Shown piece after piece: positions 1 to 10,000 of a stretch of 10,000 nucleotides of DNA. The stretch is from Rheinheimera sp. GTDB lineage: Bacteria; Pseudomonadota; Gammaproteobacteria; Enterobacterales; Alteromonadaceae. Made by a program: the position numbers and the translations under genes. How positions within the stretch are numbered: the first letter of the stretch is position 1; each line of letters starts with the position of its first letter. The notes under the pieces were generated by a model, which saw only the letters and a program-made list of their open reading frames with translations, did no database searches and was not told where the DNA came from. The DNA is taken from contig NZ_JAIWOI010000337.1 in the NCBI RefSeq assembly GCF_020217005.1, forward strand, positions 1 through 10,000, in the 5' to 3' direction.

Positions 1-505
1 GTACGTACATTCTGATGACAAAATGGTGGCCACTGTAGGTGTGAGCGACCTGGTGATTGTGAACACCAAAGACGCTATTTTGGTGGCTCATAAAGACTGT
101 ACTCAAGACGTAAAACACATAGTGAACCAACTAAAATCGGCTAACAGAACTGAAGTAAACTTCCATCGCGAAGTGTATAGGCCCTGGGGTAAATACGATT
201 CGGTGGACAACGGTCAGCGTTTTCAGGTGAAACGTATTACGGTAAAACCTGGTGCTAAGTTGTCAGTGCAAATGCATCATCACCGCGCTGAGCATTGGAT
301 AGTGGTTTCAGGTACGGCACTGGTGACGATTGACGGTAAAGATCAGTATTTGTCAGAGAACCAGTCGGTTTATATTCCTATTACTGCTGTACATGCACTT
401 GAAAACCCAGGCAAAGTGCCGCTGGAACTGATAGAGGTGCAATCAGGCAGTTATTTAGGTGAAGACGATATAGTGCGTTTCTCCGATAAATACGGCCGGG
501 TTTAA
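1..505 (+). CDS. manC: Mannose-1-phosphate guanylyltransferase / mannose-6-phosphate isomerase, C-terminal part (5' end outside window)
   Basis: This is the 3' end of a bifunctional ManC/CpsB/AlgA-type gene; the frame is open from base 2, so the first ATG at 23 is internal. The enzyme makes GDP-mannose from mannose-1-P and GTP, and in type II enzymes also interconverts fructose-6-P and mannose-6-P. The visible start ([20 protein letters not shown]) is the typical end of the nucleotidyltransferase domain. After a short linker comes the cupin isomerase domain (starting at [11 protein letters not shown], about base 167), with the metal-binding stretch [17 protein letters not shown] and the hallmark end [15 protein letters not shown]...YGR. 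The protein ends where the family normally ends, so the 3' end is intact. It lies upstream of a phosphomannomutase on the same strand, the usual pairing for GDP-mannose supply. The domain call is secure; the exact polymer served is inferred. Confidence 0.95.
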
Positions 506-579
506 AAGGGTTAAACCAGTCAACGGATATCAATAGATTTATCGGCCAAATAGAATGTCGGATTTTGCCTTAAATCCAC

Positions 580-600
580 GGGCGACCATAAAGGTCGCCC
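580..600. repeat. Perfect 8-bp hairpin after manC, possible weak terminator
   Basis: GGGCGACC (580-587), loop ATAAA, GGTCGCCC (593-600): a perfect, GC-rich 8-bp stem 75 nt after the manC stop. No T-run follows directly; the first short one is TTTT at 615-618. A canonical intrinsic terminator is therefore not shown. It may slow polymerase or protect the 3' end of the manC transcript. Confidence 0.45.
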
Positions 601-631
601 CCAGAATCATCCAGTTTTATACGAGCACATA

Positions 632-656
632 GTAGGAGCGGGGTTCATCCCCGCTC
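632..656 (+). repeat. REP-like palindromic element (GTAG + 8-bp hairpin)
   Basis: GTAG at 632-635 is followed at once by a perfect stem GAGCGGGG (636-643), loop TTCAT, CCCCGCTC (649-656). A GTAG or GGAG tetranucleotide next to a GC-rich palindrome is the known layout of REP elements mobilised by RAYT transposases. The string also resembles common Pseudomonas REP sequences. It sits in the manC-manB gap, where REPs usually lie. Only one copy is visible here, so repetition in the genome is inferred, not seen. Confidence 0.55.
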
Positions 657-700
657 GCACAGAACAAACTAGACATAGTAAATAAAAAATCAACACAACC

Positions 701-705
701 AGGAG
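701..705 (+). promoter_or_regulatory. Ribosome binding site of manB
   Basis: AGGAG ends 5 nt before the ATG at 711. This strong Shine-Dalgarno match fixes the start of the phosphomannomutase gene. Confidence 0.8.
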
Positions 706-710
706 CCAGC

Positions 711-2135
711 ATGCTTAATACAAAGGACGTTATAGCCAACAGCGGTATTGCTTTTGGTACCAGCGGGGCCCGTGGTTTAGTTACACAATTTACCTTTGAT
801 GTTTGTGCTGCTTTTACTCATGCCTTTGTGGCACAAATGCGACTCGCTTTTAAGTTTGACTCCATAGCCATAGGTATAGACAACAGACCAAGCAGTTTGG
901 CTATGGCACAAGCTTGTGCTGTCGCTGCGCAACAAGCTGGCTTAAAACCGATATTTTATGGGGTATTGCCAACACCAGCTTTGGCTTTTGTTGCAATGCA
1001 GCAGGTTATACCAGCCATAATTGTGACAGGTAGCCATATTCCTTTTGATCGAAATGGCTTGAAGTTTTACCGGCCAGACGGCGAAATTAGCAAACAAGAT
1101 GAGCTTGCTATTATTCACTCCGAAACAGAATTCGAACCTATCACGTCTCTGCAAGCTCTTCAGGTAAATAGCACTGGCGCTGAAGCTTATATCCAGCGTT
1201 ACACCCAGGTTTTTCCGGCCAATTTATTGGCAGGCAAACGTATAGGTATTTATCAGCATTCAAGCGCTGGCCGCGATTTATATAACCAGCTATTTAGTGC
1301 TTTAGGGGCTGAAGTGATAACGTTGGAACGTACCGATCATTTTGTGCCTATAGATACAGAAGCAGTATCTGCTGAAGATAAAGCCAAAGCTAAGTTATGG
1401 GCCGCAGAGCATCAGTTGGACGCTATTTTTTCGACAGACGGTGACGGCGACCGACCGCTATTAGCCGACGAACAAGGCAATTGGTTACGTGGCGATGTAT
1501 TGTGTTTGTTGGCGGCACATCAACTGAAGCTTGAAGCGCTGGCCGTGCCTGTTAGTTGTAATACTGCTATTGAAAGCTCTGGTTTTTTTAAAACTGTAGT
1601 ACGCACCCGTATTGGTTCGCCTTATGTCATAGCGGCTTTTGATAAGCTGGCGGCAGAATTTAACAGTTACGCAGGTTTTGAAGCCAACGGTGGCTTTTTA
1701 TTAGGCAGTGACGTTAATGTAGGTGCTGTAAAACTAGCGTCTTTGCCCACCAGAGACGCTGTATTACCAGTTTTAGCTGTTTTGGCTTTGGCAGGGCAGG
1801 GAACAGTGTCGTCTTTGCAACATAACTTGCCAGCACGTTTTACGGCAAGTGATCGTATTACTAATTTTGCTACTGCAAAAAGCCAGCAGTTATTAGCCGA
1901 CGCCGCCGCAGCGCCGGATTTATTTGTGCGGCAATTGGGGTTTGAAGGCGTACAGATCACAGAGCTAAACCAAACCGATGGTTTGCGTATCAGCTTAAGT
2001 AATAAGACTATTATTCACTTGAGGCCTTCAGGTAATGCACCCGAATTACGTTGTTATGTGGAATCTGACATTGAAACAGTCGCAGTAACGACGATGAAGC
2101 AGTGTTTAAATAAATTGAAAGAAATTAGTACGTAA
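711..2135 (+). CDS. manB: Phosphomannomutase (alpha-D-phosphohexomutase family)
   Basis: This 474-residue enzyme converts mannose-6-P to mannose-1-P in the cytoplasm, feeding the ManC reaction. All four phosphohexomutase sites are visible: an N-terminal FGTSGARG (about 15-22), the phosphoserine loop TGSHIP (106-111, Ser108), the metal-binding loop DGDGDR (243-248), the sugar-binding loop GFEANGG (322-328) and the phosphate-binding loop RPSGNAPELRCY (438-449). The length is normal for the superfamily. The start is supported by AGGAG 5 nt upstream. The phosphoserine loop departs from the common T(A/S)SHNP form, so this is a divergent subgroup. Specificity for mannose rather than glucose or glucosamine rests mainly on its neighbour manC. 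It lies 205 nt behind manC and may be cotranscribed with it or have its own promoter; I see no clear -35/-10 pair. Confidence 0.88.
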   Translation: MLNTKDVIANSGIAFGTSGARGLVTQFTFDVCAAFTHAFVAQMRLAFKFDSIAIGIDNRPSSLAMAQACAVAAQQAGLKPIFYGVLPTPALAFVAMQQVIPAIIVTGSHIPFDRNGLKFYRPDGEISKQDELAIIHSETEFEPITSLQALQVNSTGAEAYIQRYTQVFPANLLAGKRIGIYQHSSAGRDLYNQLFSALGAEVITLERTDHFVPIDTEAVSAEDKAKAKLWAAEHQLDAIFSTDGDGDRPLLADEQGNWLRGDVLCLLAAHQLKLEALAVPVSCNTAIESSGFFKTVVRTRIGSPYVIAAFDKLAAEFNSYAGFEANGGFLLGSDVNVGAVKLASLPTRDAVLPVLAVLALAGQGTVSSLQHNLPARFTASDRITNFATAKSQQLLADAAAAPDLFVRQLGFEGVQITELNQTDGLRISLSNKTIIHLRPSGNAPELRCYVESDIETVAVTTMKQCLNKLKEIST

Positions 2136-2159
2136 GCGATATAATGCTTCTTTTGGTAA

Positions 2160-2183
2160 TTAATGCGTTTTTTTGTGCATTAA
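2160..2183. terminator. Possible terminator of manB (weak)
   Basis: TTAATGC (2160-2166) and GCATTAA (2177-2183) form a perfect 7-bp inverted repeat around a 10-nt T-rich loop, 24 nt after the manB stop. The stem is AT-rich, and the nearest downstream T-run is GTTTTTATTTTA at about 2194. It lies between two convergent genes, where a terminator is expected, but the stem is too weak for a firm call. Confidence 0.35.
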
Positions 2184-2248
2184 GGGTGTGGTAAGTTTTT
2201 ATTTTATATTATATTTGGTTGATGGAGTTAATGTTGGGTTTTATTGCA

Positions 2249-3007
2249 CTAGTTGCTGAGCTCTCTAATAGATATGTTTTTATAGATGGCTATTGACCTT
2301 TTGGTGTTTTCATTGCCTGGGCGGTAGATTCCAAATTTTGAGTATAGTTTACTGCACGTCTTCTGTTGATATTGTTGGTTTTCTATTAACATGACATCGT
2401 CTTTGAAGATTGTTATATTCTTTTCTTTTTGGTTGACCAGTACTTCAAAGGAGTTATAGTTTTTGAAGTCATGGATAGATAAATTCCCTTCATATTTGTT
2501 TCTGTGGTTTCCATTTTCATTATCATCAGAAATACCTTCAAGCAGTTCTATTATGAGCTTTCCGTAATTTAGTTTCATCATTAGAACCGGAGCGGCAGAG
2601 CACATGTTGTTACTTGCATGGATTTGAAAAAACGTTTCTCTTTCTGAGCTGAATCCTTCACTAAGATTTATGTCGAATTTTATAACAAAATTTTTATTCT
2701 CTTCTAAATTGCCCTCTTGCCTTACTTCTGCTCTCTCCCAATAAGGAGCATTGTGTCGTGGGTCACTATCTGTTGTACATTTTCCAATATCTCCTCTATT
2801 CAAAGTGAATATTAACTCAGTTTTTTTTGAATCATCTTTCCATTTTATAGATCTAGTCATTTTTGAAGTGTCTGGCATGCCACAGCTGTCAATTAATGTA
2901 ACGTTCCAATTCTTTCCTTTATATGAACCGATTGACTCGAACGCGGGGAATAAAAAAAGTATGCAAGTAGTTATTTTAATAATGTAACTGTACTTCCTTG
3001 TTTGCAT
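2249..3007 (-). CDS. Secreted polysaccharide lyase-like protein (beta-jelly-roll fold)
   Basis: This 252-residue protein has an N-terminal signal peptide (about 1-28; basic start, hydrophobic IIKITTCILFLFPAF), so it should be exported. Three spaced motifs resemble those of jelly-roll lyases such as alginate lyase PL7 and heparin-lyase-I-like families: ERAEV (91-95, cf. R-x-E-L), FQIH (127-130, cf. QIH) and YSKFGIYRPG (222-231, cf. YFKAGIY). By analogy Arg92, Gln128, His130 and Tyr228 would line the active site. The mature part has four cysteines (42, 77, 136, 218), able to form two disulfides. It is the last gene of the minus-strand run, 132 nt after vpsP, and much richer in AT than its neighbours. 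A weak SD (GAGA, about 8 nt before ATG) supports the start. Lyases in exopolysaccharide loci usually trim, release or clear the polymer made there. The substrate is not predictable, and a non-catalytic carbohydrate-binding role is possible. Confidence 0.65.
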   Translation of the reverse strand: MQTRKYSYIIKITTCILFLFPAFESIGSYKGKNWNVTLIDSCGMPDTSKMTRSIKWKDDSKKTELIFTLNRGDIGKCTTDSDPRHNAPYWERAEVRQEGNLEENKNFVIKFDINLSEGFSSERETFFQIHASNNMCSAAPVLMMKLNYGKLIIELLEGISDDNENGNHRNKYEGNLSIHDFKNYNSFEVLVNQKEKNITIFKDDVMLIENQQYQQKTCSKLYSKFGIYRPGNENTKRSIAIYKNISIRELSN

Positions 3008-3139
3008 ATTAAAATTCTCGCTTTGAATAGTGTGTTTTAGTCTGTTGTTATGAATAACTTGGTGTCTTTTGTTGATTCAATATCCACAAACCGTCTGTCT
3101 GTAGGCAAAATATATGTATATTGAGATAAAGATTTCTGA

Positions 3140-3922
3140 CTATGAGCAATAATCTCTATTTATATACGTATTCGTTTTTGTGGTGAATTGCTCTTTTTTT
3201 AATCGTAAATAGATGCAGAAAGTTCTAAGTAATTTAAAATCTTGACCAATGGTCATCGCCTGTTTATATGTTGGATAGGAGTTCTTTATCATTTCTTCCA
3301 ACGCTATAAAGCTCTGTTTTTTTTGGTCGCCATTTAATATCTGCCAATGCTTAGCTGATATAAGTAAAACGCGCAGAAGAACTTCTGGGCTGTAGGGGCC
3401 ATAAATTCTGCCTTTATCTAATTGTGTAAAGGCTTCGCTGACTCTAAAGTTCACTATACCCAGATAATAAGCATAGTCAGCATAAGCGTTTGGCCAATTA
3501 GGTCTTAACTCAATAGCCAGTTTATAAAGCTCATCATTTACCGCAATTTGGTCTGCAGTTTTTAAGCCTTTATACCAGGCCCATTCATTTATTTTGGCCA
3601 GGGTTATTAAGTAGTGCGGGTGGTGCGGGTGTAGTTTTACGGCTGTTTCAATGGCATCAGCAGCTTGTTGCCAGCTGTTTAAATCCAGAGTTTCCGGCTT
3701 ACGTTGCCATAATTCCAGATAATAATTGGCTTTAAAATAGTAAGCGCTGGCCAGGCCTTTGTCTGTTATCGCCAAAGCCAACCAACAACAAGCGGCTAGT
3801 AGCAGGGCAGGCAATACTTTATAAAGCCATAACTGGCTTTTAGCTGGCTTGTTTTTTGCCTGCTGGGTGGCTGCTGCCTCTGACCGCGACTGTGCTGAAG
3901 ATGAAGCTGTTTTAGCCGGCAA
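3140..3922 (-). CDS. vpsP: VpsP-like polysaccharide biosynthesis protein (one TM helix plus TPR-like repeats)
   Basis: Read from a TTG at 3922 this is a 260-residue protein. An ATG at 3994 lies in the same frame but would overlap the upstream gene by 83 nt. The TTG has GAGGTG 4 nt ahead (3932-3927) and overlaps the phosphatase stop by only 11 nt, a typical coupled start. Residues 1-30 are cytoplasmic, rich in Ala, Ser and Lys. Residues 31-52 (LWLYKVLPALLLAACCWLAL and on) form one membrane helix, and the rest is probably periplasmic. About 83-115 and 128-160 look like TPR helical pairs (AIETAVKLHPHHPHYL; YKLAIELRPNWPNAYADYAY). The overall form matches VpsP, the gene after vpsO in Vibrio vps-II, whose exact job is unknown; a scaffold for the export complex is a guess. 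The last third is encoded by AT-rich DNA and ends in a poorly conserved-looking tail. Confidence 0.75.
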   Translation of the reverse strand: MPAKTASSSAQSRSEAAATQQAKNKPAKSQLWLYKVLPALLLAACCWLALAITDKGLASAYYFKANYYLELWQRKPETLDLNSWQQAADAIETAVKLHPHHPHYLITLAKINEWAWYKGLKTADQIAVNDELYKLAIELRPNWPNAYADYAYYLGIVNFRVSEAFTQLDKGRIYGPYSPEVLLRVLLISAKHWQILNGDQKKQSFIALEEMIKNSYPTYKQAMTIGQDFKLLRTFCIYLRLKKEQFTTKTNTYINRDYCS

Positions 3923-4640
3923 ATAACACCTCACTGATTTGTTTTGGCATTTGCTGTACCAGTAGTTCGGCATAGTCGGGGCTGACCAGTTCACTGACTT
4001 GTTGCGCGGCCTGTTTTAACTTAGGCGGCCGGCGTAACAGGTTATGACTGTCGGTGGCCATGACATGAAATAGTTTTTGCTTTAATAACTGCACAGAAAG
4101 CGCTGTGCTGCGTTCGCCCATATCCCCCAGTACTGAGCTGGCGGTCAGCTGAAATAAGCAGTTTAATCTGATAAAAGGTGCCAATTTGGCCGGGTCGCTT
4201 TGCACATCTCTGTTGCGTTCAGGGTGGGCTATCATAGGCAAAATGTTTTTACTAATAAGCCATTTCACCAGCTTGTCAGCTCCAGCAGGTATATGGCTAT
4301 GCGGAAACTCCAGCAGCAACACATTAAAGCCCTGATACTGGCCAATAAAGGGCAACATACCACGTTCGGCCCAGTTGAGAATTTCAGTGGATAAACGTAC
4401 TTCGGCAGCTGCTGCCAATTGGATCCGCAAGCCTGCTTGTTTACTGGCTGCCTGCAGGTCAAATAAGCCTTGCTGAATAATGCTGCTGGTATTGTCAAAA
4501 TGGCCAGGATTGATATGAGGCGTAATGACCATATGGCTGATGCCTTCCTGCTCTGCTATACGCAGCAGAGCAAGGGCTTCGTCCATATCGCGAGCGCCAT
4601 CGTCTATGCCAGGGATGATATGGCAGTGAAGATCAAACAT
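3912..4640 (-). CDS. PHP-family protein-tyrosine phosphatase (CpsB/CapC/YwqE type)
   Basis: This 242-residue cytoplasmic metallophosphatase has the full PHP metal-site set: FDLHCHIIPGIDDGA (2-16; His5, His7, Asp13), TPH (40-42), AAEVRL (Glu80), IAHPERNRD (137-145, His139) and ATDSHN (195-200; Asp197, His199). This pattern, with GIDDGA and HPERN, is specific to capsule tyrosine phosphatases rather than histidinol phosphatase or polymerase PHP domains. In the family a Mn-dependent site removes phosphate from the tyrosine tail of the partner BY-kinase, here presumably the upstream VpsO. Proteobacterial loci more often use a low-molecular-weight Wzb phosphatase. The gene starts 6 nt after an ERIC-like element. 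The only SD-like bases are GGG about 6 nt and AAGGA about 13 nt upstream, so initiation may be weak. It overlaps vpsP by 11 nt. Confidence 0.9.
   Translation of the reverse strand: MFDLHCHIIPGIDDGARDMDEALALLRIAEQEGISHMVITPHINPGHFDNTSSIIQQGLFDLQAASKQAGLRIQLAAAAEVRLSTEILNWAERGMLPFIGQYQGFNVLLLEFPHSHIPAGADKLVKWLISKNILPMIAHPERNRDVQSDPAKLAPFIRLNCLFQLTASSVLGDMGERSTALSVQLLKQKLFHVMATDSHNLLRRPPKLKQAAQQVSELVSPDYAELLVQQMPKQISEVLFAG
3927..3932 (-). promoter_or_regulatory. Ribosome binding site deciding the TTG start of vpsP
   Basis: GAGGTG on the minus strand lies inside the last codons of the phosphatase gene, 4 nt before the TTG at 3922. Neither the GTG at 3934 nor the ATG at 3994 has such a site close by. 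This implies translational coupling of phosphatase and VpsP. Confidence 0.6.
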
Positions 4641-4646
4641 TTTTTT

Positions 4647-4786
4647 CCCGTCGTCCTTGCCGCCGCAGCCGCGTTGTCTGCACTCATCATTTTATCTCAG
4701 CCCAATCACATAGGTAACTATGCTCATGGGGACTCACTCATTTGACGCCTTGCTACAACACCAATGACTTAGGGAAAACTAAATTG
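4647..4786 (-). repeat. ERIC-like element, copy 1 (140 bp, diverged)
   Basis: First unit of a three-unit head-to-tail array, next to the phosphatase ATG. Read on the minus strand it contains GTGAGTCCCCATGAGCATAG, close to the ERIC core targeted by the classic ERIC1R primer, and ends in GACGGG as ERIC does. It differs from copy 2 by a replaced segment after CACTCAT (CATTTTATCTCAG in place of TCGC, +9 bp) and by changes that break one stem pair (CACATAG for CGCATAG). The match to ERIC is from memory of the consensus. Confidence 0.75.
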
Positions 4787-4917
4787 CCCGTCGTCCTTGC
4801 CGCCGCAGCCGCGTTGTCTGCACTCATTCGCCCCAATCGCATAGGTAACTATGCTCATGGGGACTCACTCATTTGACGCCTTGCTGCAACACCAATGACT
4901 TAGGGAAAACTAAATTG
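4787..4917 (-). repeat. ERIC-like element, copy 2 (131 bp)
   Basis: Second unit, directly following copy 1 with no spacer. Its centre is an imperfect palindrome: GCATAG, loop GTAA, CTATGC, then a 3x3 internal loop and an outer 5-bp stem (CCCCA with TGGGG). Length and central layout (two GGGG/CCCC arms around a short hairpin) fit the roughly 127-bp ERIC/IRU family. It is nearly identical to copy 3, pointing to recent duplication. Confidence 0.78.
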
Positions 4918-5046
4918 CCCGTCGTCCTTGCCGCCGCAGCCGCGTTGTCTGCACTCATTCGCCCCAATCGCATAGGCAACTATGCTCATGGGGACTCACT
5001 CATTTGACGCCTTGCTGCAACACCAATGACTTAGGGAAAAACTAAA
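4918..5046 (-). repeat. ERIC-like element, copy 3 (129 bp)
   Basis: Third unit, ending 30 nt from the vpsO stop. It differs from copy 2 only at a few places: loop GCAA instead of GTAA, one extra A in the GGGAAAAAC run near 5040, and the outer end (CTAAACACC instead of CTAAATTG). As part of the minus-strand operon it would be transcribed into a long hairpin between the kinase and phosphatase messages. The 30 nt between it and the vpsO stop hold only a short hairpin (CCTGTTGCAGCAGG). Confidence 0.78.
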
Positions 5047-5076
5047 CACCCAAATCCTGTTGCAGCAGGTACTTAG

Positions 5077-7269
5077 TTAGCTCTCGTTACTGCTGTAGTA
5101 GTGGTAGTAACCATACTGGCCATAATCGCCATAGGCTTGCGCTACTTTTTTCATATCCACTTTATTTAATACTACACCATACAGGTTGTTCTCCGCCTGC
5201 AGTAACTTAGCCACACCACTGCGTATAGCGCCGCCTCTGGTATGGTCTGCTGATACTACATACACCACAGCGTCCATTTGTTTAGCAACAATTAATGGGT
5301 CGCTGACCGCCTGCACTGGTGGCGTGTCCACAATAATGCGGTCGAATCTTAACGCCAGTTCTGCTAATACTTCGCTAAACTTGTCGGACGCTAATAACTC
5401 CAGCGGGTTAGGTGGTACATTACCAGCTGCTAATAAGCTAATGCCTGAAGCTTCGTCTACTAACAAACAGTCATCTATTTGCTCACGGCCAGCAATAATA
5501 TTGGCTAAACCAGGCTGATAAGCTGGCAAACCAAAGCGTTTGGCCAGGGTAGGGCGGCGCATATCGGCGTCTATTAACAGTACTTTTTCCATTTGGCCAA
5601 AAGCAAAGGCTATATTGGCTGCAACTGTCGATTTACCTTCGCCCGGCACTGAAGAGGTGACTTCAATAGTTTTTAAACTACGGTCCAGCGCCAATAAAGT
5701 TAAGCTGGTGCGAATACTGCGTACCGACTCGGCATATTGTTTATGTTGGTCGCTAAAAAAGGTATGAACGGGCAAATCCACCGTCTTTTTATGCGGAATA
5801 GCAGGAATAAAACCTAAAGAACGCTGGGCTAATAAGCTTTCTATTTCCTGTGGCGACTTAATGGTGTCGTTTAATGCGTCCAGCACAAAAGCCAGCATCA
5901 CACCAAAACCTAAAGTAGCGATAAATGCCAAAATAACAATCAGCTTACGTTTCGGCGCTACAGGCTCAGTAGCAGCTACCGCTCTGTCGGTAAAACGGGC
6001 AATGGCCGAGTCAAAGTCGCTGGTCACTTCAGTTTCTTTTTGGCGTGATAAAAAGGTATCAAACAACTGCTTATTAGTTGCGACTTCACGTTGCAGGCGC
6101 TGATAAGTGGTTTCTTTAATACTTACGTCCTGGTATTGGGTTTTGGCTTTGGCTATTTCTGACTCTAACGAATTCACCGTTTCCTGGATGGTTTGAGCTT
6201 CGTTTTCTATACCAGCAATCAGTTTTTTAATTTGGTTACGCAGGTTGTCCTGCACCGCGGTTAACTCACTTTGCGCTGCTATTAATTTAGGGTGTTTAGC
6301 ACCATAAATTTTAGAAAGCTCAGACACCCGCCTTTCTGTCAGCACTTGTTGTGCTTTTACGTCTTGCACCCCTTTATGGGCGGTAATTTCTGGCAGGCTT
6401 TCTAATCGTTCAATTTTGTCGGTGCCATATTGTTTAATTACCCGCATAAAACCGTCGACCTGGGCTTTACGGGAACGGGCTTCTGTTAAAGCTTCAGATA
6501 AACGTTCCAGCTCTTTGGCACCTAAACCGCGCACACCTTCCACGTCTATTAAGCCTTCTTTTTCACGATAGGCTTGTAAGCGGGCTTCAGAATCGTCCAG
6601 CTGGGCTCTTAATTCACCTAAACGGCCACCTAACCAGCTAGCGGCTTTTTGGGTAATACCTAACTTGGCCTCTAACTGGCTTTCTATATAGGTATCAGCC
6701 ACTGCATTGGCTATATCTGCCGCTAGCTGTGGGCTATAGGTTTGAAAGCTTATATTCACTAGCTGGGTTTTGCGTATAGGGGTAATAGTAAGTCTTTCCT
6801 GAAATTCAGTAATTAAATCTTCCCGGGCTTTGTGGGCCAGTTCTGCTTCTGTAAGCTCACTTTCAGGTAAAGGTAAAAACGGCAATACATCCCTTAGTCT
6901 GGTGATTAAACCTGGTTTTACTTCAAAGTCGGGGTGATTGGTTAAATCCATACGCTCTACCACGGTTTGGGCAATAGAACGGGATTTTAAAATTTCAAAC
7001 TGGGTTAAATAATATTCTTGTTGGCTGGAGTTCATGCCATACACTTCTTCAATAGACACAGCTTTAGCTTGCTGCGATTCTATGAGTAAAGTGGCGGTAG
7101 CCGAATACTGCGAGCGGATATTTAATACCACCAGCACAGTAATTAAAGTGACCAAAATAGCCAGGCCAAAAATACGCCACTTATGAATATTAATTACGCT
7201 TAAGTATTTACGTAAGTCTATAACGTCCTGCTGTGGTGCAGGGCTTACCATTAAATCCGTTACTGCCAT
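5077..7269 (-). CDS. vpsO: VpsO/Wzc-like chain-length determinant and BY-kinase
   Basis: This 730-residue inner-membrane protein joins a Wzz domain to a bacterial tyrosine kinase. TM1 is about 32-51, TM2 about 442-464, and the periplasmic part between them (about 52-440) holds coiled-coil stretches (about 215-275 and 340-400) ending in a GNVR-like segment (VATNKQLFDTFLSRQKETE). The cytoplasmic kinase has Walker A SVPGEGKST (540-548), Walker A' LLIDADMRRP (564-573) and Walker B IIVDTPP (645-651). The tail has seven tyrosines at 713, 716, 719, 721, 722, 724 and 725, the usual autophosphorylation cluster. The family sets polymer length and drives export with a Wza-type protein through phosphorylation cycles. 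It starts 2 nt after vpsN, so translation is probably coupled. Length and domain order are normal for the fused proteobacterial type. Confidence 0.95.
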   Translation of the reverse strand: MAVTDLMVSPAPQQDVIDLRKYLSVINIHKWRIFGLAILVTLITVLVVLNIRSQYSATATLLIESQQAKAVSIEEVYGMNSSQQEYYLTQFEILKSRSIAQTVVERMDLTNHPDFEVKPGLITRLRDVLPFLPLPESELTEAELAHKAREDLITEFQERLTITPIRKTQLVNISFQTYSPQLAADIANAVADTYIESQLEAKLGITQKAASWLGGRLGELRAQLDDSEARLQAYREKEGLIDVEGVRGLGAKELERLSEALTEARSRKAQVDGFMRVIKQYGTDKIERLESLPEITAHKGVQDVKAQQVLTERRVSELSKIYGAKHPKLIAAQSELTAVQDNLRNQIKKLIAGIENEAQTIQETVNSLESEIAKAKTQYQDVSIKETTYQRLQREVATNKQLFDTFLSRQKETEVTSDFDSAIARFTDRAVAATEPVAPKRKLIVILAFIATLGFGVMLAFVLDALNDTIKSPQEIESLLAQRSLGFIPAIPHKKTVDLPVHTFFSDQHKQYAESVRSIRTSLTLLALDRSLKTIEVTSSVPGEGKSTVAANIAFAFGQMEKVLLIDADMRRPTLAKRFGLPAYQPGLANIIAGREQIDDCLLVDEASGISLLAAGNVPPNPLELLASDKFSEVLAELALRFDRIIVDTPPVQAVSDPLIVAKQMDAVVYVVSADHTRGGAIRSGVAKLLQAENNLYGVVLNKVDMKKVAQAYGDYGQYGYYHYYSSNES

Positions 7270-7271
7270 AT

Positions 7272-7799
7272 TTAAAAGAATCTCTGTTCTATGGTAATGG
7301 TGTCGCCAGCATTCACTCTGGAGTTCAGATCAGCGTTTAACGCCTGGCTTTTATTGCCTTCACGATAAATAAATATTTTTTCTTTAGAGGCGCGCTCAGT
7401 TAAACCACCAGCCAATGCTATAGCCTGGTTCACTGTCATACCTGGTTTATAAGGGTAACCACCAGATTGTTTTACTTCGCCATTAATAAAAAACGGCCTG
7501 TACTCTACCATGCCCACAAATACATTAGGCTCGACAAAGTAATCACCTTTTAAGCCGTCATAAATACGGTTTTCCAGCTGCTTAATGGTTAAGCCTTTGG
7601 CCATAATTTCGCCAAGAAAAGGGTAGTTAATTTTGCCGCTGTCGGTCAGCTGAGTTTCTATTTTCAGCTCTTCTTCGCCGTATACCTGAATAATAATTTT
7701 GTCGCCCGGCCCTAATAAATAGCCACCCTCGTCCTGAGCATGCACCCAGGATGACCAGCTGATACAAAGGGCAACAAACAGCACTACGAATTGTTGCAT
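7272..7799 (-). CDS. vpsN: VpsN/Wza-like short polysaccharide export protein (OPX)
   Basis: This 175-residue protein has a signal peptide of about 21 residues (cut near VHA/QDE), then a Poly_export domain (about 26-98; YLLGPGDKIIIQVYGEEEL, YPFLGEI, YFVEPNV) and one SLBB domain (about 102-150; FINGEVKQSGGYPYKPGMTV, IALAGGLTERA). There is no convincing lipobox and no C-terminal amphipathic helix, so unlike Wza (about 380 residues) it cannot span the outer membrane itself. Short OPX proteins of this kind are known or proposed to work with a separate beta-barrel, which fits vpsM just upstream. AGG lies about 9 nt before the ATG. A hairpin lies between it and vpsM, and it is nearly fused to vpsO (2-nt gap). 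Confidence 0.92.
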   Translation of the reverse strand: MQQFVVLFVALCISWSSWVHAQDEGGYLLGPGDKIIIQVYGEEELKIETQLTDSGKINYPFLGEIMAKGLTIKQLENRIYDGLKGDYFVEPNVFVGMVEYRPFFINGEVKQSGGYPYKPGMTVNQAIALAGGLTERASKEKIFIYREGNKSQALNADLNSRVNAGDTITIEQRFF

Positions 7800-7880
7800 G
7801 AGGTTTTGCCTAAAGTTTGTTAATACTGTTAATTCGAACTAAAACCTGTGGACATAAAGGGCCCAACTTAAAACTACAAA

Positions 7881-7910
7881 AGCGCAACTGCATTCATATG
7901 CAGCTGCGCT
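7881..7910 (-). terminator. Strong hairpin between vpsM and vpsN, possible attenuating terminator
   Basis: AGCGCAACTGCA (7881-7892), loop TTCATA, TGCAGCTGCGCT (7899-7910): a 12-bp stem with one A-C mismatch. On the minus strand it is followed by TTTGTAGTTTTAAG, a broken T-tract. It lies about 20 nt after the vpsM stop and 80 nt before vpsN. Since vpsN and vpsO belong to the same pathway, partial read-through or 3'-end protection of vpsM mRNA is more likely than a full stop. Confidence 0.55.
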
Positions 7911-7931
7911 TGCAGCTAAACCACAACCAGC

Positions 7932-9113
7932 TTAGAGCGAAATATCAAAGACTATACCTGTGATATTACGGTCAAACTCTATACCTGGCACAGACGAAGT
8001 TTTGTCTGTCACTGTGGTAAATAAGCTAACGTCAACAAAACGGCGGAACGCATATTTCACGCTGGCTGTGTAGGAGTCGTTTTCATCTTTACGCACTAAA
8101 CCTACGTAGTCTTCTTCCATTCTGTTGTACGACAGGTTGGTTTGTACTGTTTCGCTCCAGTTATGGTTCCAGCCCACTACATAAGTAGTTTCTTTAATGT
8201 AATCGCCACCCTGCAGCGGGTCTTTGGCTTTACGGCCAGTACCAACATTAAATACGCTGTAGGACAAAGGCGACCAATTAGCGTTCACTGTCCAGGCTAC
8301 ACCGCTGAAGTCTTCACGGGCGTTGTCGTCAAAGTTCTTTTTCTGGTAACCAATTTTGGCTTCACCTGAAGTTAAAGCACTGATTTGCCACTCGGCACCC
8401 ACTTTCACGTTCGTGTCTTTGCTATCGCGTGGCGCTGTAGGGTCAACAAAGTCGTAACTTACATCTTCAACGCTGCTCTCCAATACGGCAGAAATGCCAG
8501 CTGCGGTGTCGTAGTAAAAATTCACACCACCCAATAACGAATCGTAGTCACGGAACTGCGTCACTTCGCGTTGGTTCATATAGGCTTTATTAAAGTACTT
8601 AGCACCAACACGAACACGGGCAGGGGCCGCTTTAGCGCCGTATTCATAGTAGCTGGATACAGTTTGGCTGTTATAACGGGTAGGCTCGTTTTGGTTGTTA
8701 CTTAAGCCTTCAGTGATACCTGTACCCCTGTCTTCATGGCTCCAGATTAAATCTGCTTTGGCATTAAATTTGCCTTGTTCAGACAGTTGGGTGTCAAACA
8801 GCGCACCCAGCAGAGTATCGGTGAAGTTGTCATCACTACTGTCAAAATAGGTGCCGTTGGCAACAGCGGCTGTTAATTCAGTTTTGCTGACACCATCGTC
8901 CAATACAGCTCTGAGCGAAGGCTGTACTGTCAGAATCCAGCTGTCAATTTCATTGGCGCTGGTGCTTGCTACGTTGTCGTCGTGTTTTAAACCTGTGGTC
9001 AGTAAAGGCGTAATATCAAAGCCTGACCCGGTCTGAAAAGACTGAGGTTCAACAGCAAACACCTGTGTGCTGGCACATGCCAATGCCACCATAACAGCTA
9101 ACTTGGATTTCAT
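7932..9113 (-). CDS. vpsM: VpsM-like outer-membrane beta-barrel protein
   Basis: I place the start at the ATG at 9113 (393 residues). It has AAGGG about 7 nt upstream and opens directly into a signal peptide, MKSKLAVMVALACASTQVFA, cut before VEPQ. The ATG at 9155 would add 14 residues ahead of the signal and overlap vpsL by 29 nt. The mature protein is a run of alternating polar/hydrophobic strands with many Tyr, Trp, Asn and Asp (for example YYEYGAKAAPARVRVGAKYF, AEWQISALTSGEAKIGYQKK), typical of a beta-barrel of the putative porin 2 / VpsM group, about 16-18 strands. It ends VFDISL, near but not exactly the usual terminal-aromatic signal. Position between vpsL and vpsN matches Vibrio vps-II. 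Its likely job is the outer-membrane pore for the polymer, partnered by VpsN. Confidence 0.85.
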   Translation of the reverse strand: MKSKLAVMVALACASTQVFAVEPQSFQTGSGFDITPLLTTGLKHDDNVASTSANEIDSWILTVQPSLRAVLDDGVSKTELTAAVANGTYFDSSDDNFTDTLLGALFDTQLSEQGKFNAKADLIWSHEDRGTGITEGLSNNQNEPTRYNSQTVSSYYEYGAKAAPARVRVGAKYFNKAYMNQREVTQFRDYDSLLGGVNFYYDTAAGISAVLESSVEDVSYDFVDPTAPRDSKDTNVKVGAEWQISALTSGEAKIGYQKKNFDDNAREDFSGVAWTVNANWSPLSYSVFNVGTGRKAKDPLQGGDYIKETTYVVGWNHNWSETVQTNLSYNRMEEDYVGLVRKDENDSYTASVKYAFRRFVDVSLFTTVTDKTSSVPGIEFDRNITGIVFDISL

Positions 9114-9120
9114 AAATTTT

Positions 9121-9125
9121 CCCTT
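9121..9125 (-). promoter_or_regulatory. Ribosome binding site deciding the vpsM start
   Basis: AAGGG on the minus strand lies 7 nt before the ATG at 9113 and next to the vpsL stop. It favours this start over the ATG at 9155 within vpsL. Confidence 0.6.
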
Positions 9126-9126
9126 T

Positions 9127-10000
9127 TTAGTAAACATTTTTTCCAGTAAAACCACGGAAAAAGGTTAAGAATACAATTTTGGCGTCCCACCAGAGCGACC
9201 AGTTTTTAATGTAATTCAGGTCGTACTCTATGCGTTTTTCCATTTTTTCTAACGAATCAGTTTCACCACGCCAGCCGTTGATTTGTGCCCATCCGGTAAT
9301 GCCTGGTTTCACTTTATGCCGCAGCATGTAAAAGGCCACTAACTTACGATACTGTTCGTTGTGAGCTACCGCATGAGGGCGGGGGCCAACAACAGACATG
9401 TCGCCTTTTAATACATTGATAAACTGTGGCAATTCGTCCAGTGATGTGCGTCGCAGCACTGCACCTAAAGGTGTGACCCGGGCATCGTTTTTGGTGGCTT
9501 GCACCACAGTGCTGCCGTTGTCCTGTACTGTCATGCTACGAAACTTATAGACCTTGATCGGCTTGCCGTCCAATCCGTACCTATCCTGCTTAAATAGCAC
9601 TGGGCCACGGCTGGTAAGCTTGATAGCCGCAGCTATCACCAACATTGGAACAGCAAGTAAAACTAATGCGATAGAGCTGACCACTATGTCAAAAGAACGC
9701 TTCAGCCAGTCTCTGGCGCCGTAGTAAGGCGACTCGAATACACTTAAGGTTTCGACACTGCCAATGTTGCCTAATCTGGCATGCATCAGGTTATACAGCA
9801 GTAAGTCTGGCACTATGTGTACGTCGACCGTAGTGTCACCTAAGCGTTGAATAATTTCAGCAATACGTTTGTCGGCTGACAAAGGCAAAGTGATATACAG
9901 CTTGTCAAACTCACCTTCTCTGGCCAATTCAACACATTCATTAATTTTACCCTGCAGCATGCTGGCACATTCAGCTAAGCGTTCTGGTAAACGGTCGTCG
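9127..10000 (-). CDS. vpsL: Undecaprenyl-phosphate sugar phosphotransferase, VpsL/WcaJ type (5' end outside window)
   Basis: The frame is open to the window edge (visible start DDRLPERLAECAS), so the ATG at 9960 is internal and about 290 C-terminal residues are seen. The enzyme moves a hexose-1-phosphate, usually glucose-1-P, from a UDP-sugar to undecaprenyl phosphate, starting the repeat unit at the inner membrane. Visible are the end of the CoA-binding-like domain (VPDLLLYNLMHARLGNIGSV), the junction KRSFDIVVSS, a membrane helix (about 104-126 of the visible part), then the catalytic core: SRGPVLFKQDRYGLDG, YKFRSM, RRTSLDELPQFINVLKGDMS (Asp-Glu pair), VGPRPHA, HKVKPGITGWAQINGWRGET and DLNYIKNWSLWWD. 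The stop is 13 nt before vpsM. The GWRGET and PHAVAHN forms match the WcaJ/VpsL subgroup. The sugar is inferred. Confidence 0.94.
   Translation of the reverse strand, partial: DDRLPERLAECASMLQGKINECVELAREGEFDKLYITLPLSADKRIAEIIQRLGDTTVDVHIVPDLLLYNLMHARLGNIGSVETLSVFESPYYGARDWLKRSFDIVVSSIALVLLAVPMLVIAAAIKLTSRGPVLFKQDRYGLDGKPIKVYKFRSMTVQDNGSTVVQATKNDARVTPLGAVLRRTSLDELPQFINVLKGDMSVVGPRPHAVAHNEQYRKLVAFYMLRHKVKPGITGWAQINGWRGETDSLEKMEKRIEYDLNYIKNWSLWWDAKIVFLTFFRGFTGKNVY

Follow-up and report, generated by a model that had tools for sequence, protein, structure and literature searches.

A head-to-tail ERIC array adjoining the start codon of a cpsB-type phosphatase gene in Rheinheimera, and the possible use of its tail as a ribosome-binding region

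The gap between a Wzc/VpsO-type BY-kinase gene and a cpsB/capC-type PHP phosphatase gene in Rheinheimera sp. is mostly filled by three tandem copies of the repeat ERIC, one end of which adjoins the phosphatase start codon. The reading that we favour, with a probability of roughly three in four, is that the array is a tandemly duplicated, TA-flanked MITE (ERIC) whose 3′ tail became the ribosome-binding region of cpsB. The observations behind it are the anatomy of the array, its homology to ERIC, the existence of relatives in which the locus is ERIC-free, and the recurrence and conservation of the tail at other start codons. At the cpsB locus a captured tail would touch a kinase-phosphatase pair, and such pairs control polysaccharide synthesis and chain length in other bacteria. 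The features described below lie in a window of 10,000 nt, the whole stretch of DNA that was analysed (contig NZ_JAIWOI010000337.1, positions 1 to 10,000).

3912..4640, minus strand: cpsB/capC-type PHP phosphatase gene, starting MFDLHCHIIPGIDDG (PF19567, 7.1e-50, residues 2-235)
4641..4660, minus strand: putative translation initiation region of the phosphatase, composed of the ERIC tail CAAGGACGACGGG and six A (sequence; codon listing)
4646..4776, minus strand: ERIC copy 1, phosphatase-proximal, diverged, with 9 extra nt internally (covariance model R1, 103.9 bits; alignment A1)
4777..4785, minus strand: spacer between copies 1 and 2, containing TTTAGTT, as does the flank to the left of copy 3 (junction listing; local alignment of the flank)
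4786..4907, minus strand: ERIC copy 2 (R1, 130.3 bits)
4908..4916, minus strand: spacer between copies 2 and 3, of the same sequence as that between copies 1 and 2 (junction listing)
4917..5038, minus strand: ERIC copy 3, kinase-proximal, 99% identical to copy 2 (R1, 129.6 bits)
5077..7269, minus strand: Wzc/VpsO-type BY-kinase gene with Wzz, GNVR and AAA_31 domains (Pfam)

The three units lie at 4646-5046, and the covariance model R1, which was built from 33 ERIC copies of the genome that contains the window (hereafter the own genome), places them on the minus strand at the coordinates listed above, in the same direction as both flanking genes. Tandem Repeats Finder reports a single tandem array in the window (4701-5046, period 131, 2.6 copies, 98% matches), and a repeat search recovers a 44-nt block common to all three units with start-to-start spacings of 140 and 131. 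Neighbouring copies are separated by 9 nt between their model ends, the outer bases of all three are degenerate, and copy 1 is 89-90% identical to either of the others. The original prediction, drawn from the letters of the window, had described three head-to-tail ERIC-like elements in the kinase-phosphatase gap, two of them nearly identical, and both the model and Tandem Repeats Finder bear this out, the measured identity of copies 2 and 3 being 99%; its "perfect" triplet is a triplet, the adjective being slightly too strong because one copy has diverged. With the array in place the two genes are 436 nt apart. There was no Rfam match at gathering score anywhere in the window, and a consensus scan of 4400-5400 found no promoter or terminator. 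Downstream in the same polysaccharide cluster, the window encodes a polysaccharide-lyase-like protein (PF14099; 2249-3007, minus strand).

Judged by homology, the units are true ERICs. The Rheinheimera consensus aligns with its best E. coli matches at 80.7% identity over 119 of 119 nt (E 8e-22), at places where no feature is annotated, and it matches 5374 of 5426 E. coli genomes, 4828 of them over at least 80% of the query. R1 likewise gives 120 bits to an E. coli copy that lay outside its training set. This copy, the best-listed E. coli match (strain 7/2), lies in the interval from yjbE to yjbF, two genes with an exopolysaccharide annotation, and is oriented in their direction. The CCC...GGG inverted ends and the central hairpin of ERIC are present, 17 of the 34 predicted base pairs show changes on both sides in at least one sequence, and TA-CCC...GGG-TA could be seen by eye in many copies of the own genome, TA termini being reported for ERIC in an earlier paper (PMC2759123). 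The ERIC hallmarks that the original prediction had recognised in the units therefore agree with the E. coli homology, the ends, the hairpin and the TA flanks. The two comparisons it had proposed gave the same answer, since the unit can be aligned over its full length with E. coli copies and occurs elsewhere in the own genome, where at least 147 copies are spread over 131 sites, 114 of the 147 measuring 121-124 nt by the model. Matches were found in all 22 genus genomes surveyed, from 3 to at least 147 per genome; copy counts in this survey, in the own genome and in a second Rheinheimera genome (G002) are lower bounds, 150 candidates having been scored in each. In an order-wide sample, to which stricter filters were applied and in which 24 candidates were scored per genome, 33 of 148 genomes had a match. 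Orthologous sites occur both with and without the element. The Rheinheimera copies thus resemble ERIC/IRU/RU-1 of Enterobacteriaceae and Vibrionaceae in length (about 120-127 nt), terminal inverted ends, TA termini, central hairpin and a copy number of tens to hundreds. They differ in that they often form head-to-tail arrays and in that some of their 3′ tails abut start codons, and no description of either feature was found in the open-access literature searched, which included passages of PMC10969869, PMC2229807, PMC3091717 and PMC3049150.

The original prediction was silent on the ERIC end that adjoins the phosphatase start codon. The GGG end of copy 1 (4647-4649) is followed after 6 nt by the ATG of cpsB, and the tail CAAGGACGACGGG also contains AAGGA at 4654-4658. 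On sequence grounds the start position appears firm: the PF19567 match begins at residue 2 of the phosphatase, and a codon listing shows no ATG, GTG or TTG in frame from the TAA within copy 1 up to this ATG. For both of these reasons the ribosome-binding region of cpsB must be ERIC DNA. As a Shine-Dalgarno sequence the tail is predicted to be weak, its pairing energy with the anti-Shine-Dalgarno being -5.7, compared with -5.8 to -9.3 in relatives, and the distance from AAGGA to ATG is 13 nt, compared with 10 in Rheinheimera sp. YQF-1. Folding predicts that the Shine-Dalgarno stretch is less open than in three relatives (unpaired fraction 0.32 versus 0.46-0.75) and the start codon more so (0.78 versus 0.01-0.22 in relatives), while the initiation region as a whole is alike (0.45 versus 0.41-0.49). 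Since these differences oppose one another, folding gives no net direction for phosphatase output, and a prediction of lower phosphatase translation was dropped, the Shine-Dalgarno stretch being less open but the start codon more so.

The sequence of events that we envisage is that fixation of an ERIC immediately before cpsB in the polysaccharide operon came first, that the 3′ tail of this ERIC displaced the native ribosome-binding region so that ribosomes would now initiate phosphatase synthesis on ERIC RNA, and that the element then multiplied head-to-tail by local duplication, which would have brought the kinase and phosphatase genes to their present separation. This supposes that both genes are carried on one mRNA and that the tail serves as a Shine-Dalgarno sequence. 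Because the array puts 436 nt between the genes, translation of the phosphatase would be expected to be no longer coupled to that of the kinase.

An ERIC precedes cpsB at only two of 16 loci from the genus, those of the window and of YQF-1. In R. tangshanensis, strain 1928-s and a metagenome-assembled genome, whose CpsB proteins are 92-93% identical to that of the window, the locus is ERIC-free, with 32 nt from the kinase stop to the cpsB start and GTG as the start codon. At the YQF-1 locus a single ERIC, its 5′ end degraded, stops 3 nt short of the ATG; copy number at cpsB is accordingly zero in three close relatives, one in YQF-1 and three here. The two carriers are not each other's closest relatives, cpsB of the window being 76% identical at the nucleotide level to that of YQF-1 versus 83-87% for the three ERIC-free relatives. 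Window and YQF-1 are also unusually alike over the final 33 nt of the kinase gene (0.94 identity versus 0.81 for the whole gene), so that the tail they have in common could be due to local recombination. It is also possible that the other lineage lost its ERIC. The upstream part of the gap in YQF-1 contains a repeat of another family (AACCTTGGGGTCAGGCCTTGAAT and its inverse, at about 4779-4900 of the locus sequence), which adjoins the degraded 5′ end of the ERIC.

The tandem arrangement is not peculiar to this locus. In the own genome 14 of the 131 ERIC sites found are tandem (12 doublets, one of them an overlapping weak match and one cut by a contig end, and two triplets), as are 10 of 112 in G002 (five doublets, four triplets and one sextet), so the original prediction that ERICs normally occur singly and that a tandem is unusual fails in the two Rheinheimera genomes examined. 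The sextet is a head-to-tail array at 693155-693903 of G002 contig C1. Nor are arrays confined to Rheinheimera, since a genome from another family of the order (G160) has three tandem ERICs on one strand with a spacing of 125 (C8:64336-64707). Every one of the 24 arrays in the two Rheinheimera genomes is head-to-tail in a single orientation. Identity within arrays is 0.80-0.99 in the own genome, apart from the overlapping weak match (on contig C46) at 0.67, and 0.74-1.00 in G002; across different own sites the median is 0.73 and the 95th percentile 0.83. The uniform orientation and the mostly greater likeness of copies within own arrays disfavour an origin by repeated single insertions, the similarity argument being weaker in G002, where some pairs fall to 0.74. 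In eight of the 24 arrays, as counted by eye, the junction repeats roughly 5 nt or more of the flank to the left of the first unit, the shared stretch in the window being TTTAGTT. These features fit an origin by local tandem duplication of the element together with its left flank. Tail-like fragments lie just to the left of ERICs at 21 of 122 own sites and 13 of 107 G002 sites (the numbers taken into this analysis out of 131 and 112), compared with 2 of 125 and 0 of 107 on the right; their frequency on the left suggests that arrays grow and shrink by recombination. A decayed fourth tail upstream of copy 3, plausible by eye, found no support in a shuffle test (p 0.16).

The arrangement at cpsB recurs, and the position of start codons relative to ERIC ends is asymmetric. 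The first ATG of an open reading frame of at least 90 codons was sought near the 3′ end (sense) and the 5′ end (antisense) of each element. In the own genome, where sites with a last unit below 110 nt or a flank below 300 nt were left out (112 of 131 usable), an ATG lay 0-29 nt from the ERIC end in 16 sense versus two antisense cases, and 30-99 nt away in 22 versus 24. The corresponding numbers in G002, after removal of sites whose first or last unit was below 110 nt (106 of 112 usable), were 20 versus three and 16 versus 20. Fisher tests of the asymmetry give p 0.004 for the own genome and 0.001 for G002, and the two are not independent because orthologous sites are shared. The contrast is weaker (27 versus 15) in a looser count that admitted GTG and TTG starts (at least 80 codons, within 30 nt). 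Many of the sense cases at 15-29 nt seem by eye to have kept a native Shine-Dalgarno between ERIC and ATG, and most ERIC sites of both genomes are not at start codons at all. At the closest range, an ATG 3-7 nt past the element end, there are seven sense and no antisense sites in the own genome and four and one in G002. The seven own candidates encode a SpoU methylase, a protein kinase, a fumarase, a pirin, an isochorismatase, an amine oxidase and CpsB; the fumarase was withdrawn, probably starting at a later ATG, as its G002 ortholog has only the later one. Anti-Shine-Dalgarno energies of the tails at ERIC-started genes differ from those of 119 others at p 0.011 in a post hoc test that still included the fumarase. 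Arrays are found at two of six ERIC-started genes versus 12 of 125 other sites in the own genome (p 0.12), and at two of four versus eight of 108 in G002 (p 0.04), an enrichment that is suggestive only.

Comparison between species, in sets that were chosen by possession of the tail and are biased to that extent, and from which two loci (L318 and L340) were left out as partial matches short of the gene start, indicates that some tails are well conserved. At spoU the tail precedes the ATG in 10 of 12 close species, and in all 10 the last 16 nt before the ATG (tail plus a 3-nt spacer) are invariant, compared with 10% of 77 fourfold sites and two of the 24 next upstream positions; the body of the element is truncated or unrecognised in five of the 10. 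At the pirin gene six of 12 close species have the tail, four of them with the body gone, and 13 of 16 positions are invariant versus 26% of 72 fourfold sites, with 11 of the next 24 upstream positions also invariant. Four species share a tail at the amine oxidase gene and two at the isochorismatase gene; in the amine oxidase set six of 16 columns are invariant, which is partly due to a one-base length difference in one species. Where the ERIC is lacking, the species have different leaders, in which GGAG-type motifs were often visible by eye. It is slightly more probable than not, with less confidence than is attached to the cpsB locus itself, that the Rheinheimera ERIC is a mobile ribosome-binding site whose 3′ tails (such as AAGTAAGAAGGG, AAGTACGAGGGA or AAGGACGACGGG) have been captured repeatedly by unrelated genes, the tail then being retained by selection as the remainder of the MITE decays, and further copies being added upstream by tandem duplication. 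The proposed set comprises cpsB and the genes for the SpoU methylase, the pirin, the isochorismatase, the amine oxidase and a protein kinase. If this is true, the genus has a portable means to rewire translation and to uncouple genes within operons, and the element would be a tangible example of a repeat exapted for translation, in which one end of a MITE is held by selection as its body decays. In the open-access literature searched, ERICs are not reported from Rheinheimera, nor are their tails described as ribosome-binding sites; the original ERIC papers cited there (Hulton 1991, De Gregorio 2005, Wilson and Sharp 2006) may contain an earlier mention.

The strongest competitor, plausible without being preferred, is that the array mainly affects mRNA stability, a folded ERIC exposing an RNase E site as ribosomes approach and so destabilising the upstream kinase message. 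Passages from reviews report such an effect on mRNA stability for Yersinia ERICs, dependent on their orientation, and describe bacterial MITEs that change RNA stability or add reading frames. The arrangement here, in which all three ERICs have the direction of both genes and copy 3 starts 38 nt past the kinase gene, would suit such an effect, and as in Yersinia, so far as those passages describe it, the ERIC lies within a transcribed unit and its orientation matters. What a decay effect leaves unexplained is that ERIC 3′ ends lie at start codons and that the tail is conserved where the body has been lost; the role proposed in Rheinheimera differs from the Yersinia one in that it concerns how translation of the downstream gene starts, the tail being its ribosome-binding region. 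The two roles are compatible, and an effect on RNA decay could possibly act alongside ribosome binding.

That the ERICs are neutral debris of a mobile element, inserted where harm is small and close to starts by accident, is considered unlikely. The majority of sites lie away from start codons, as this would predict, and because tail-like fragments are common to the left of ERICs (the 21 of 122 own and 13 of 107 G002 sites above), tails can persist by recombination without selection; accidental closeness does not, however, account for an orientation asymmetry limited to the first 30 nt, or for 16 of 16 invariant positions at spoU in 10 species. Still less likely is the tuning switch suggested by the original prediction, in which the presence of one, two or three units would set the amount of kinase relative to phosphatase. 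Copy number does vary between species at the cpsB, spoU and pirin loci, and copies 2 and 3 are 99% identical, but when the transcript was folded with three, two or one copy the predicted accessibility of the Shine-Dalgarno stretch was the same each time (0.32 unpaired), so that folding lends the tuning no support and an effect of copy number on ribosome access was rejected.

Compared with other small repeats, the proposed capture of an ERIC tail as a ribosome-binding region has partial parallels. BIME, Correia and BOX elements are likewise small folded repeats able to change the expression of their neighbours, and the review passages on them refer to attenuation, RNase cleavage and new reading frames and do not mention the supply of a Shine-Dalgarno sequence. 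Variation in the Rheinheimera element itself extends to its length, ten of the 147 own copies measuring 177-180 nt, as though they had received an internal insertion of about 57 nt (for example at C240:6206-6385, C321:4935-5113 and C184:803-981 of the own genome, G000).
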